The translations under genes were made by a program, and so were the position numbers. Of a stretch of DNA of 54,311 nt, positions 9,711 through 54,311 are shown in pieces. The notes beneath the pieces are model-generated. The model ran no database searches, was not told the origin of the DNA, and worked only from the letters and a program-made list of their open reading frames with translations. This DNA comes from Candidatus Nitrosopumilus sp. (GTDB lineage: Archaea; Thermoproteota; Nitrososphaeria; Nitrososphaerales; Nitrosopumilaceae): assembly GCA_029250275.1 (NCBI GenBank), contig JAPFBP010000004.1, forward strand, positions 1 through 54,311, read 5' to 3'. Numbering within the stretch: the first letter of the stretch is position 1; each line of letters starts with the position of its first letter.

Positions 9711-9792
9711 TTAAATCGACTTTTTCATTCTGATAATGTTGTTTATATCCCTTAGTGAAAAACAAAAATCATAGTTTGGATCTAAGAGAATA

Positions 9793-10731
9793 ATGCCATT
9801 TCTAAGAGTTGAGGGATTATCCTCCACGTATTCGTCATCAAAAGGACCTGTTTATGCAGTTGATGATGTTGATTTTAAATTAGACAGTGGTGAATCAATA
9901 GGGATAGCAGGTGAGAGTGCATCTGGAAAAAGCACATTAGGTTTATCGTTGATTCGAATGCTTTTAGGAGGAACTACAAAGGGCAATGTCGATTTTGATG
10001 GTGATTCTATTTTAGATATGGACGAGTCAAAATTTGACGATGAATATAGATGGAAAAAAATTTCTATGGTATTTCAAGGTGCAATGAATTCTTTGGATCC
10101 TGTATTTACAATTAATGAACAATTTACAGAGATTTTAAAACAACATAACTATCATGGCGATTTTAAAAAAATAATTTTAGATGCCATGAAATCCGTAAGT
10201 CTTGATGAAAATGTTCTAAAAAAATATCCTCATGAACTAAGTGGAGGAATGAAACAAAGAGTTATCATTGCTATGGCGTTATTACTTAAACCAAAATTTG
10301 TCATTGCAGATGAACCTACTACAGCTTTAGATGTTTTGATGCAATCTCAAATCATCAATTTATTAAAATCCCTAAAAAAAGATGGCATGTCTCTGATGTT
10401 AATCACACACGATTTATCCGTTTTATCTGAAATTGCTGATAGAATTGGTATAATGTATGGGGGACAAATGGTAGAATTTGGTTCTTCAGAACAAATTTAC
10501 AAAAATCCAAAACATCCTTACACTCAAGGTCTTTTAGAATCTATTCCAACTTTGAAAGGGAATCCTCCAAAATATATCAAAGGAGTCTCTCCAAGTTTAT
10601 TTGATGCACCAACACAATGCAGATTTCTTGAACGATGTCCGTTGGCTATAGAAAAATGCAAAGAACTTCCTCCTAAATTTAAAACTGCTACTGGTTATGT
10701 TAGATGTTGGTTATATGAAGATGAAAAATGA
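9793..10731 (+). CDS. oligopeptide/dipeptide-type ABC transporter ATP-binding protein (DppD/OppD-like)
   Basis: The 312-aa protein has all ABC ATPase motifs: Walker A GESASGKST at about residues 40-48, Q-loop VFQGAMNSLDP, signature LSGGMKQR, Walker B VIADEPT and a switch His (LITHDLS). The C-terminal oligopeptide-transporter extension ends with a Cys-rich segment (CRFLERCPLAIEKC ... RCW), like the region that binds an iron-sulfur cluster in some DppD proteins. No permease, binding protein or partner ATPase is nearby, so the rest of the transporter must be elsewhere or this ATPase works alone. It converges on the pseudogene at 10734-11026. Confidence 0.9.
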   Translation: MPFLRVEGLSSTYSSSKGPVYAVDDVDFKLDSGESIGIAGESASGKSTLGLSLIRMLLGGTTKGNVDFDGDSILDMDESKFDDEYRWKKISMVFQGAMNSLDPVFTINEQFTEILKQHNYHGDFKKIILDAMKSVSLDENVLKKYPHELSGGMKQRVIIAMALLLKPKFVIADEPTTALDVLMQSQIINLLKSLKKDGMSLMLITHDLSVLSEIADRIGIMYGGQMVEFGSSEQIYKNPKHPYTQGLLESIPTLKGNPPKYIKGVSPSLFDAPTQCRFLERCPLAIEKCKELPPKFKTATGYVRCWLYEDEK

Positions 10732-14997: not shown

Positions 14998-15198
14998 TCA
15001 ATATCTCCATTTTGTCAAGAGGGTGAGTGATTTTAGTTCTGAAAGTTTGTTTTCTTTAAGTAGACTATAGTGGGTTTTGTTCTGATTTGATTGATTCTTT
15101 GGAATTTTAAATGAAAATGTATCTCCTTGATTGATTTCACTATCTATTCATATTTTTCCTAGATGATTTTCAATAATCCCTTTACATATGGCAAGGCC
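14998..15198 (-). pseudogene. histidine-kinase remnant (end of HATPase domain)
   Basis: On the minus strand from 15198 the sequence reads GLAICKGIIENHLGKI, then TGA, then IDSEINQGDTFSFKIPKN and a tail to a stop at 14998-15000. This is the G2 box and final strand of a two-component histidine-kinase ATPase domain. The TGA stands where kinases have Trp (GKIW). Everything upstream (sensor, His-box, N and G1 boxes) is absent. The remnant abuts the truncated receiver domain on the other strand. Confidence 0.7.
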
Positions 15199-15391
15199 AA
15201 AGAAAGATGGCTTGACTGTCGTACAAGAAATTATTCAATTTGATCCTAATTCTAAAATTATTTTAATCACTGCCAGTGATGATCAAAAAATAATACGATC
15301 GTGTTTGGACTCTGGTGCCTCTTCATATGTTTCAAAACCATTTGATTTTAACACTATCTTAAAAGGAATTTCAGATCTTTTAGCAAAGTAA
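15188..15391 (+). pseudogene. response-regulator remnant (C-terminal half of receiver domain)
   Basis: From about 15197 the plus strand encodes PKKDGLTVVQEIIQFDPNSK, IILITASDD and SGASSYVSKPFD, the alpha3-beta5 half of a CheY-like receiver with its conserved Thr/Ser and Lys. The first half, including the acidic pocket and the phospho-acceptor Asp that normally precedes MPKKDG, is missing. The apparent start (ATG 15188) and the residues Ala-Arg are the reverse strand of the kinase fragment. A functional phospho-receiver is therefore impossible. Confidence 0.75.
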
Positions 15392-15416: not shown

Positions 15417-17249
15417 ATGATTAACGTAATGTCCAAAATTATTGCTGATACCAGTGTTATAATTAATGGTCAATTAATTGCTCAAATTGAATCTGGAAAT
15501 GTCAAGAATTTTGAAATTATAATACCTCAATCTGTTATTGATGAATTACAATCTCAAGCATCAAAGAAAAAGGAACAAGGATTTGTAGGTCTTGAAAAAA
15601 TTAAGCGACTTAAATTATTATCTGGCAGTTATGGATTAAATATTGTTGTAAGCGGTTCCCACACTACTTCTGATGATGTAAAGCTTGCATCTAGTGGTAG
15701 GATAGATGCTCTAATTGTTGACATGGCCAAACAAAATAATGCTATACTATACACTTCTGATAAAGTTCAACATTTAGTGGCTCAGGCTGAAGGTGTTGAA
15801 ACAGTATTTCTTAAATCTGAAATTAAAACTCAATCATTAGAGTTTCTCAAGTATTTTGATTCTGAAACTATGAGTGTACATCTCAAAGAAAATCAATATC
15901 CGTTGGCTAAAAAAGGCAAACCTGGAGCATTTGAATTGACGAAGCTTAATGATGAACTCCTTTCTAAAAATTATTTAGAATTTATCACTTCTCAAATTTT
16001 AGATATTGTAAACATCTGTGATTCTAGTACGTTGGAGATATCAAAAACTGGTGCATATGTGGTTCAACACGAAGATTACCGAATAGCTATCACATACCCT
16101 CCTTTCTCTGAGGCTTTTGAAATTACAATAGTCCATCCTATTGTGAAATTAACCCTTGATGATTATACAATTTCTGAAAAATTAATGAAGCGTTTTACTG
16201 ATAGTGCAGAAGGAATTGTTATCTCTGGTGCTCCTGGTTCTGGAAAAAGTACTCTTGCATCTAGTCTTGCAAATTTTTATCATAAAAAAGGAAAGATTGT
16301 AAAAACATTTGAATCTCCACGTGACTTACAAGTTGATTCGGGAGTAACTCAATACAGTAAACTTGATGGAAGTTTTGACAATTCTGCCGATATTCTGTTA
16401 CTTGTAAGACCTGATTATACTATTTTTGATGAAGTGCGACGACGAGAAGATTTTGTAACATTTGCTGATTTAAGATTAACTGGTGTTGGCATGGTTGGAG
16501 TTGTCCATGCAAATTCACCATTAGATGCAATTCAACGCTTTATTGGAAAAATTGAACTTGGAATTATTCCAAATGTGTTAGATACTGTAGTTTTTGTTAA
16601 AGATGGTGGAATTCAAAAAGTCTATGATTTAGAATTAATGGTAAAAGTTCCTACTGGAATGACTGAATCTGATTTGGCTAGACCTGTAATTGAAATTAGA
16701 AATTTTGAAGATGATGTCTTAGAACATGAAATCTATACTTTTGGAGAAGAAAACGTCATTGTCCCTGTTGGAAAAAAAGCAGATAAGGTTGGAATTGAAA
16801 AATTAGCTGAAGATAAAATTAAAGAAACATTTAGACGATATGATCCTAGAGTTGAAGTCGAAATTTTATCTGATAATCGTGTTAAAGTCATGGTTGATGA
16901 ACAATGTATTGCATCAATAATTGGTAGAGGAGGTTCAAACATTAAAGAAATTGAAAAATTACTTAGAGTACACATTGATGTTGTTGAGAAAACGTCTGAT
17001 GATGTATCATTAACATCTAGTGATGTACCATTTAGTTTTTCAGAATCAAAAACTTCTTTAATACTTACAGTGAATAGAGATTTCACTTCAATGCATGCTG
17101 ATATTTATGGTAATAAAAAATTCATTGCATCAGTTAGAATTGGTAAAAAAGGGCAAATCACAATTCCAAAACGTTCTGATGTTTCAAGAAAATTAATAGA
17201 TTTTACATCTTCACAAAACGATATTAAGATTTATCTTAAAGATCTTTAA
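15417..17249 (+). CDS. PINA-type protein: PIN domain, PilT/VirB11-like ATPase and KH domain
   Basis: The 610-aa protein has three parts. A PIN nuclease-like domain starts IIADTSVIINGQ and continues with acidic residues (IDALIVDMA, LYTSDK). A hexameric secretion-type ATPase follows (Walker A GAPGSGKST near residues 271-279, Walker B-like TIFDEVRR). A KH domain is near residue 500 (IASIIGRGGSNIKEIE). The architecture matches archaeal PINA, reported in Sulfolobus as an ATPase acting on Holliday junctions. ATG 15429 (MSKIIADTS) is also possible and fits better the TATA-like TTATTATAATTTATA just upstream. Its 3' end overlaps the convergent DtxR gene by 14 nt. Confidence 0.9.
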   Translation: MINVMSKIIADTSVIINGQLIAQIESGNVKNFEIIIPQSVIDELQSQASKKKEQGFVGLEKIKRLKLLSGSYGLNIVVSGSHTTSDDVKLASSGRIDALIVDMAKQNNAILYTSDKVQHLVAQAEGVETVFLKSEIKTQSLEFLKYFDSETMSVHLKENQYPLAKKGKPGAFELTKLNDELLSKNYLEFITSQILDIVNICDSSTLEISKTGAYVVQHEDYRIAITYPPFSEAFEITIVHPIVKLTLDDYTISEKLMKRFTDSAEGIVISGAPGSGKSTLASSLANFYHKKGKIVKTFESPRDLQVDSGVTQYSKLDGSFDNSADILLLVRPDYTIFDEVRRREDFVTFADLRLTGVGMVGVVHANSPLDAIQRFIGKIELGIIPNVLDTVVFVKDGGIQKVYDLELMVKVPTGMTESDLARPVIEIRNFEDDVLEHEIYTFGEENVIVPVGKKADKVGIEKLAEDKIKETFRRYDPRVEVEILSDNRVKVMVDEQCIASIIGRGGSNIKEIEKLLRVHIDVVEKTSDDVSLTSSDVPFSFSESKTSLILTVNRDFTSMHADIYGNKKFIASVRIGKKGQITIPKRSDVSRKLIDFTSSQNDIKIYLKDL

Positions 17250-51224: not shown

Positions 51225-52064
51225 TTGGTGACGATAAACCCTCTTGAATTATTTTTATGGACTTTTAGAAGAAATGAAAAAGATGTAGTTAATCTTTACA
51301 CCGCTCTATCCCCTGTTATGCAATTAGCCACGGGTGGGTCAATGCTGAATTTCGGATTTTGGTCAAAAAATCACCCTGATCCTATATCTGCTCAAAATAA
51401 TCTATGTATGTTTTTTGCAAATATGGCAGAATTGGCTTCTACACTAAAGGTTGTTGACGTAGGTAGTGGTTTGTCTGCTCCATCCAAACTTTGGAGAGAT
51501 ACATATCCTGATATCAACTTGTATGATGTTAATATTAATTTCAAGCAATTAATTGATTCTGGTTTTGAAAAAAATATAGAGTTTTTAAATTCTACATCTA
51601 CAAAATTACCATTTGCAGATGATTCAGTTGATCGTGTTTTAGCATTAGAATCTGCTCAACATTTCAACCCTTTGATTAGTTTTATTTCTGAATCTAAAAG
51701 AATATTGAAAAAATCTGGATTACTTGTTATTGCAATTCCTGTATCTCTTGAAAATCCATCTTTTAGAAAATTAGGTCTCTTAAAATTTACTTGGTCTTCT
51801 GAACACTATTTACTGGACACTGTTAAACAATTTATCGAGTCTGGTGGATTTGTTATTTCTGAAGAAAAATTAATTGGTGAATTTGTTTATGGACCTTTGG
51901 CAGACTATTATATAGAAAACAGAATGACTTTAAAAAAATCTATTTTGGAAAAATATCCAAACTATGTTGAAAAAATTCTTTACAAATCTCTTCTATCCAT
52001 GAAAAAAGCATCAGAAAAAAAATATATCGATTATGTTCTTTTGAAGTGTACTTTAAAGTCTTAA
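51225..52064 (+). CDS. SAM-dependent methyltransferase (class I, Methyltransf_11-like)
   Basis: Motif I is LKVVDVGSGLSAPSKLW, motif II includes LYDVNINFKQL, and motif III/IV is LPFADDSVDRVLALESAQHF, giving the class-I fold. The C-terminal part (SESKRILKKSGLLVIAIP) completes the core, followed by a variable substrate region. The start is GTG 51228 or TTG 51225; CATTAAACAA about 20 nt upstream fits a leaderless start at either. The substrate is unknown, and lipid or small-molecule methylation is possible (sterol/phospholipid methyltransferase-like). It overlaps the convergent pseudogene by 4 nt. Confidence 0.82.
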   Translation: MVTINPLELFLWTFRRNEKDVVNLYTALSPVMQLATGGSMLNFGFWSKNHPDPISAQNNLCMFFANMAELASTLKVVDVGSGLSAPSKLWRDTYPDINLYDVNINFKQLIDSGFEKNIEFLNSTSTKLPFADDSVDRVLALESAQHFNPLISFISESKRILKKSGLLVIAIPVSLENPSFRKLGLLKFTWSSEHYLLDTVKQFIESGGFVISEEKLIGEFVYGPLADYYIENRMTLKKSILEKYPNYVEKILYKSLLSMKKASEKKYIDYVLLKCTLKS

Positions 52065-53154
52065 ACTATGAGTATTTTTTTACCAATAAGATACTCCATT
52101 ACTTGAATGTATTCAGATTCTAAAATCAACCCGTCTAGAAACCACATTGTATTTGTTTTAAACCATTTTAGAATATTCATATCGTGTAATTGAATTCATG
52201 CGGAATCTTGAAACATATTAGTTTCAATTAATGATAATTTTTCCCACACTGTAACAGGTTTTGTAATTTCAAACTTTTCTGAAAGTAAAATCCCTGGTTC
52301 TTTATCAATAATCAATAATTTACTTTGATCATTATTTTGGGCAAACAATCCTACTCTTGTTATAGTTCATATATCGTAATTTGTTGTTCCAGTTACCCTG
52401 TAATCACCAATTATTTGCACTATGTTTATTGGAATTTTATATAGAAACTTGGTAGTTATACAACATTTTTCTTCTATGGGGATTTTATTATTTTCATTCA
52501 GATGAAATTGATTCATCTCTACTTTTTCTTCTGAAATTTTTTTACTGTTAACTAAAATTCAATCTGAATCTATTTTATCAATTTCAAACTTTTCTGTAGT
52601 GGTATTCTTGTACTTACTTGTATGTGAATAAATTACATAATCTGTTCTTTTACACATAATCCGTCTTCATTACAAACTCTATTACTGATATTATCCATAA
52701 TTGGTGGGGATATCACATTATTTTCTATCAATGATCTTATTGCATATGCAAATGTGCTGTCTTTTAATTCTCCATTTACCAATAACCTTGCATCTTTTTT
52801 AATCCAATCTGGAAATATTGTAAATTCACTGTGTCTTTGTCGTATAAAATCTGCGCTTCCTAAGTATTTTTTAATTTCTGCAATTAATACAATATCTCTT
52901 AATTGGTGTTGACTATTCCATGCAATATGGTCGTATAGAGTACTACATGCCATCAGATTTGGAAACTGTAGATGTTGAATGGATAAAATATTTAATCCTA
53001 ACAGTAGCTATTCTTCATAATAAAATTCACAAAATTCTAAAATATCTTTTACTGTCTTAACTTCAAAATCTGGTTGGTATCCTAAAACACTTTGAGTATT
53101 AAAACTTCAAACCAGTACCATTACAATAATTCCAATTAATAATAATCTCAACAA
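52061..53154 (-). pseudogene. membrane-anchored exported protein gene with five Trp-position stops and a frameshift
   Basis: From TTG 53154 the minus strand reads as one gene of about 365 codons: a signal/anchor helix (LLLIGIIVMVL), an extracytoplasmic domain with a PEWIK-like module (FPDWIKKDARLLVNGELKDS), a beta-rich middle, and a second such module at the end (ILKWFKTNTMWFLDGLILES). It is broken by TGA at 53107, TAG at 53008, TGA at 52559, 52367 and 52196, and by a one-base shift near 52645-52651. Every TGA stands where Trp fits the sequence. The longest intact piece (52633-52953, 106 aa) starts inside the gene. Confidence 0.75.
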
Positions 53155-53301
53155 TATTTTATCTGTACTTTTAACTTATTAATTTCATGTAAAATTTTCT
53201 TTAACTTGATGACCGTTCTGGTATCTTTTTTTGTAATTAATACTATTTTTGGTCTTTTGAGATTGATTAGGTTTTTATTTTTGATATTTTATCTTAAAAT
53301 T

Positions 53302-53673
53302 ATGGTTGATACCACTTTGTATGCTAAAAAATGTGCTAAATTGTTAGAAGAATCTGAAATCCGTTTTGCAGGAATAGTAGACAAAGATGGTAAACTAATT
53401 GCAGGTGGTTTTAAGGAAGGACTTGTTCCTTATGAAGGCGATGAGACAAAATTACAGTCATTTTTTGATTTTGTTTCAAAAGCATCTATACGAAAAGAGT
53501 TTGATGAAAGCCTAGGACCGATAAATTACATTGCTGCAAGACGTGACAAGGCAGTTTTAATTAGTTTCCCATTCCCGATTACCAACATCTTACTTTTAAT
53601 TTCTGCAGAACCTTCTGTCAATATTGAAAATTTGGCAAAGAAAGTTGTAGAGATATTCACTGATGTTAATTAG
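53302..53673 (+). CDS. roadblock-like/DUF6659-type protein, 123 aa
   Basis: ATG 53302 (MVDTTLYAKKCAKLLEESEI) is preferred; the upstream extension is hydrophobic low-complexity sequence that includes the TATA-like TTTTTATTTTTGAT. The core IRFAGIVDKDGKLIAGGFKE, a central helix (LQSFFDFVSKASIRKEF) and AVLISFPFPITNILLLISAE have the alpha/beta pattern of roadblock/profilin-like sensor domains. It resembles 11152-11526. Function is unknown; it may regulate a small GTPase. Confidence 0.65.
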   Translation: MVDTTLYAKKCAKLLEESEIRFAGIVDKDGKLIAGGFKEGLVPYEGDETKLQSFFDFVSKASIRKEFDESLGPINYIAARRDKAVLISFPFPITNILLLISAEPSVNIENLAKKVVEIFTDVN

Positions 53674-53733
53674 ACATATTTTCACAAACTTACGTATTCT
53701 TTAATTATGTGTGATGAAATTTAGTTTTTGAAT

Positions 53734-54311
53734 ATGCGTTTATTTTGTGTGTTTTTCTTATTGTCAATTTTTACATTATCTAGTTTTACATATGGTTTTG
53801 CGACTGTTGATAATTTTACTACTGACAAATCATCATACTATACTGATGATTTTATTATAATTTACGGAACTGTGGATTATGATCCGACTCTTTTTTCAAT
53901 AATTATTCAGATTATTACTCCTAGTGGAAATGGTCTATCTCATGTTGATAGTGTCATTCCCAAAAGTGATGGAACATTTACAAAAACTATCCGTGCTGGA
54001 GGTCCAACTTGGAATGAAAATGGTCAATATACAATAAAGATTTCCTATGGTGGAAATCTTGAAAAATTAATTGATTATGAAAAAATATCTGATTATACTC
54101 TTCCTCAATCCAATACGCCAACAACATCTCAACCAACAACATCTCAACCAACAACATCTAACATCGTTCCTAAAAATTTGGATATTTCTTTTCTAGAAAA
54201 TCCAAAAATGCGAATTTTGGGATTCCCTTCCTTTGACAAATCCCCACAATACTATATTGACAGATATAACACTGAACCTGAATACCAATCTTGGTTTGAT
54301 TTTCAATTTCC
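53734..54311 (+). CDS. secreted protein, 3' end outside the window
   Basis: ATG 53734 opens a signal peptide (LFCVFFLLSIFTLSSFTYGF) followed by an exported beta domain (TTDKSSYYTDDFIIIYGTVD, GTFTKTIRAGGPTW). A Thr/Ser/Pro/Gln linker built of TTSQP repeats comes next, then a further domain still open at 54311. This is typical of thaumarchaeal cell-surface proteins (beta-sandwich plus flexible linker). The gene is cut by the window end, so length and C-terminal anchor are unknown. Confidence 0.75.
   Translation, partial: MRLFCVFFLLSIFTLSSFTYGFATVDNFTTDKSSYYTDDFIIIYGTVDYDPTLFSIIIQIITPSGNGLSHVDSVIPKSDGTFTKTIRAGGPTWNENGQYTIKISYGGNLEKLIDYEKISDYTLPQSNTPTTSQPTTSQPTTSNIVPKNLDISFLENPKMRILGFPSFDKSPQYYIDRYNTEPEYQSWFDFQF
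54118..54159 (+). repeat. 15-bp in-frame tandem repeat in the linker
   Basis: CCAACAACATCTCAA is present at 54118 and 54133, with a third partial copy at 54148. It encodes the repeated PTTSQ linker of the partial secreted protein. Such repeats vary in copy number by slippage. Confidence 0.85.

Follow-up and report, generated by a model that had tools for sequence, protein, structure and literature searches.

The reading frame on the minus strand at positions 52061–53154 is, with little room for doubt, a recent and ordinary pseudogene of an exported PxWIK-motif protein. The window, that is, the whole stretch of DNA analysed, is one entire contig of 54,311 nucleotides and belongs to a draft genome of 1.48 Mb (96 contigs, 99% complete). 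The frame starts with TTG at 53154 and ends with TAA at 52063–52061, where it runs into the final bases of the methyltransferase-like gene that converges on it. When the sequence was re-read, the four TGA codons, the single TAG and the one-base frameshift of the original prediction were all found in place, and TGG was kept at each of the five positions that it had named (HIAW, PDW, TVW, LKW, and TMW). Where a TGA is cited by one number (53107, 52559, 52367, or 52196), the lowest base of the codon is meant. The features of the site are as follows:

51225–52064, plus strand: intact, convergent methyltransferase-like gene (279 aa; named from sequence), a fixed neighbour across the genus
52061–53154, minus strand: pseudogene for an exported protein (about 365 residues), whose read-through matches 19 intact syntenic orthologues over its whole length
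52196–52198, minus strand: in-frame TGA; Gly (GGA) in 10/10 closer orthologues
52367–52369, minus strand: in-frame TGA; Gly in 8/10 and Glu in 2/10 closer orthologues
52559–52561, minus strand: in-frame TGA; Gly (GGA/GGG) in 10/10 closer orthologues
52644–52645, minus strand: one-base deletion seen in the alignment (GAAACAGAT to GAACAGAT), by which the frame is shifted
53008–53010, minus strand: in-frame TAG; Tyr in 23/24 relatives, TAC in the nearest relative
53107–53109, minus strand: in-frame TGA; Gly in the nearest relative and in most others
53206–53673, plus strand: intact gene for a small roadblock-like protein (named from sequence), 96% identical to that of the nearest relative

Orthologues were collected with the read-through protein, carrying X at the stops, as the query of a six-frame search that covered 95 genomes of the genus. 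The 19 full-length open orthologues obtained in this way share 37–62% identity with it, and their end-to-end alignment bears out the coherent protein that had been predicted. The nearest relative (G087) has, at a contig end, the 5′ half alone, open over 161 codons and 79% identical. Nearly all orthologous loci have the same roadblock-like and methyltransferase-like neighbours, followed by an RDD-like gene; all three names were given from the sequences and not from a database. The records of the named relatives belong to Nitrosopumilus, Nitrosarchaeum and other Nitrosopumilales, and are mostly metagenome assemblies, with some from single cells or other sources. Three of the loci, JACZTB010000005.1 (L033/L005), LFEY01000009.1 (L034/L003), and CALFHG010000045.1 (L053/L015), resemble the broken copy in their neighbours and domain order at 60–79% identity; unlike it, all three are open, although CALFHG010000045.1 holds just a 5′ half at a contig end.

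The intact members begin with a hydrophobic helix, a putative anchor or signal, at the N-terminus. The helical domain that comes next is conserved (FCEFFYEEY...PNLRAC...HxAWNSTH...EIEKYLG); it is followed by a PxWIK helix pair, a beta-rich middle part containing a CC pair and, at the C-terminus, a PxWWK helix pair. Judged from its N-terminus, the protein would lie at the cell surface, exported or anchored in the membrane. Neither the read-through nor the intact proteins matched a Pfam or NCBIfam family above cut-off, no solved structure matched the family profile, and AlphaFold gave a poor model (pLDDT 64, pTM 0.30) for an intact orthologue. When the literature was searched for Nitrosopumilus pseudogenes, no paper that deals with this gene came up; the limnia genome is the subject of PMC3043068. 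The same genome carries an intact distant paralogue of 188 aa on another contig (C8; L002, positions 1087–1653), about 34% identical to the N-terminal part, in which the N-terminal domain is joined to the C-terminal module without the beta-rich middle; a piece of 56 bp is 82% identical in DNA.

The residues replaced by the stops were read from a codon alignment of the broken copy with 24 relatives. Opposite the TGA at 53107, Gly is present in 14 of the 23 relatives aligned there, including the nearest one, and Ser, Ala, Phe, or Leu in the rest; the Gly codons are GGA, GGG, GGC, or GGT (GGC in the nearest relative). The one relative without Tyr opposite the TAG at 53008 has Phe. At 52559 the Gly of the closer orthologues is replaced by Glu or Lys in the distant group, and at both 52559 and 52196 the Gly codon of the closer orthologues is nearly always GGA. 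At the frameshift site GAA is followed by CAGATTATG in the broken copy and the relatives read GAA-ACN-GAT-TAT; that is, one A has been lost. None of the stops, nor the deletion, was found in any aligned relative. The simplest events that would account for the lesions are four GGA-to-TGA changes (G to T), one transversion from TAC or TAT to TAG, and one deletion. Other conserved residues have changed as well: a Trp codon (TGG), for example, is now TTG for Leu, and an Arg codon (AGG) is now ATG for Met.

These alignments, which the original prediction had itself proposed as a check, run against its claim that the stops stand at or near Trp positions: Trp is opposite none of the five in any of the 24 aligned relatives, the residues replaced in the closest clade being Gly (or Glu at one site) and Tyr. 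The further claim that all five stops arose by G-to-A change of TGG falls with it, since no TGG became a stop; of the seven Trp columns of the closer clade, TGG is kept in five and has become TTG (Leu) and TTT (Phe) in the other two. A biased G-to-A process that breaks Trp codons in decaying genes has in its favour that on the branch of this genome no class of change is commoner than G to A plus C to T (42/95), and that the one stop of the histidine-kinase remnant elsewhere in the window aligns, as had been suggested, with Trp in the two nearest relatives (G032 and G066; Ser or Thr in the others). A single such case is no evidence of bias, and with none of five stops derived from Trp the probability left to this process is vanishingly small. 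The example may serve as a caution that a guess at the residues behind stop codons may fail at each of them when no orthologues are consulted: a plausible account based on Trp gave way to Gly and Tyr once the relatives had been aligned.

With Gly opposite all four TGA codons in the closest clade, a pattern unlikely under simple neutral mutation, it was also considered whether this gene or organism might read TGA as Gly or as some other residue, so that the frame would still be translated. Known recoding of TGA includes selenocysteine and the glycine of the SR1/Gracilibacteria code, and the broken copy resembles these in having TGA inside a frame and, in the case of SR1/Gracilibacteria, in the residue concerned. 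It differs from them in that its TGA codons are unconserved, being common to no relative, and occur together with a one-base deletion and a TAG that replaces Tyr, both of which argue against any recoding confined to TGA. Recoding would be expected to affect one type of residue and to keep its stops across relatives; here two types (Gly and Tyr) are affected and no stop is kept. Gly is otherwise encoded by GGA, GGG, or GGT within the same gene. TGA is moreover a genuine terminator in this window: eight of the 38 longest stop-to-stop frames end in it, among them the ORF at 9775–10731, whose orthologue in G032 aligns over all 318 residues and has TAA at the same codon. A search for tRNA-Sec returned nothing over the cut-off, the six sub-threshold matches being ordinary Lys, Ser, Gly, Cys, Ser, and Leu tRNAs, so that a normal Gly tRNA is among them. 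There is thus hardly any probability that the frame is still translated by recoding. Of the readings offered in the original prediction, the decaying gene has stood, supported by the intact orthologues, the TAG and the indel, the unshared stops, and repeated loss in the genus; readthrough has gone the same way as the TGG-to-TGA bias.

The number of stops was compared with that expected for a gene decaying neutrally. The broken copy differs from the nearest relative at 59 of 483 nucleotides over the first 161 codons; half of this divergence, scaled to the whole gene, gives 67 substitutions, which were applied at random to an intact orthologue. Because the simulated mean was 3.7–4.2 stops and five or more arose in 30–41% of runs (P=0.30–0.41), the number observed agrees with neutral decay since the split from the nearest relative. 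Changes polarised with outgroups gave 16 nonsynonymous to 8 synonymous on this branch versus 10 to 8 on that of the nearest relative. Pairwise dN/dS of the broken copy is 0.2–0.4, not clearly above the values between intact orthologues; decay must therefore be recent, and the values would suit a loss preceded by a long constrained history.

The course of events favoured here would start from a dispensable, fast-evolving exported PxWIK-motif gene with a fixed place between the methyltransferase-like and roadblock-like genes in archaea of the Nitrosopumilus group. Its function would have been lost in this lineage at about the time of the split from the nearest relative, and five nonsense mutations (four from Gly GGA to TGA, one from Tyr to TAG), the loss of one base and missense changes at conserved positions would then have gathered under little or no selection. 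On this account, functional protein would no longer be made from the locus.

Two other origins of the interrupted frame were weighed. The draft consists of 96 contigs, and about 1.2 kb separates the gene from the contig end, as would suit stops made by errors of sequencing or assembly. Such errors are very unlikely, because the genes to either side, even that at the contig end, have open frames; only one gene is damaged, conserved sites carry missense changes too, and the same gene has decayed in relatives. It is still less probable that the broken frame now serves as separate short functional proteins. The best candidate, a piece of 106 aa at 52633–52953, is open and contains one PxWIK module; it lacks an exported start, its second conserved Trp has become Leu, and no relative was seen to carry this piece alone as a gene at the site.

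Decay of the gene at this site is widespread. It has been broken independently in at least five other genomes, and these copies (G008, L084; G093, L062; G024, L079; G048, L004; G040, L009) lie between the same neighbours as the present one and, like it, have lost the open frame, whether to stops, frameshifts, or truncation. Their lesions differ from those described above: a single TAG that replaces Trp in G048, a single TAA in G040, and long deletions in G093 and G024. The frame is disrupted in G001, and a C-terminal piece with stops and shifts is present in G076. The stretch adjoining the methyltransferase-like gene was read in 48 further genomes. The gene is absent from 38 of these, with the neighbours 37–214 bp apart; five (G093, G073, G075, G024, and G008) contain homologous pieces, and in five the far neighbour falls outside the stretch read. 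The piece in G075 is probably an N-terminal remnant; that in G073 has the reverse of the expected orientation and perhaps does not derive from the exported-protein gene. Since loss or breakage of the gene is common in the genus, no special process is needed to account for the broken copy, and the site, with its exported-protein gene repeatedly broken or missing in the Nitrosopumilus group, provides an example of surface-protein turnover.

One feature of the decay is odd, namely that all four TGA codons arose at Gly and that no TAA arose. Four or more TGA codons at Gly were obtained in none of 4000 neutral simulations under either mutation model, a count made post hoc. By analytic estimate, four of four TGA codons would derive from Gly with a probability of 0.0006–0.0056 depending on the mutation model, and both this and the simulated figure are to be read with the reservations that the pattern was noticed post hoc, that one site may have been Glu, and that ancestral codons in the second half of the gene were inferred from proxy relatives differing at about 20% of nonsynonymous sites. 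No genome-wide excess of G to T was found over 3268 bases aligned with G087 and G032, in which G to T plus C to A made up 12 of the 95 changes on this branch. Within the second half of the gene, G to T occurred at 6 of 49 sites versus C to A at 1 of 34; the stops account for three of these six. The pattern is regarded as coincidence or a weak local bias. That it has a cause other than chance, either a local strand-specific G-to-T process or an occasional reading of TGA as Gly in this lineage, tolerated in a gene of low importance, is highly improbable.

The ancestry of the region was compared over 51225–54309 and loci L015 and L016. At 15417–17249 this genome shares 95% identity with G087 and 93% with G032; at the pseudogene the G032 allele is distant (41%) versus 79% for G087, and in the next exported gene (53728–54309) it is G032 that is the closer, at 69% versus 34%. 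This mosaic ancestry suggests recombination around the pseudogene site.

The histidine-kinase remnant lies at 15016–15204 on the minus strand, where relatives have a kinase of about 630 aa, and contains one in-frame TGA (15150). It abuts a response-regulator-like fragment at 15188–15391 on the plus strand, with an overlap near 15190–15204, and the junction (15016–15391) has the look of a deletion or inversion that fused two genes. Immediately beyond the stop codon of the kinase (15016–15060, minus strand; loci L106–L115), conservation across relatives extends to the stretch LLKENKLSELKSLTLL, whose frame varies by genome and which is possibly the end of an opposite-strand gene or an untranslated element.
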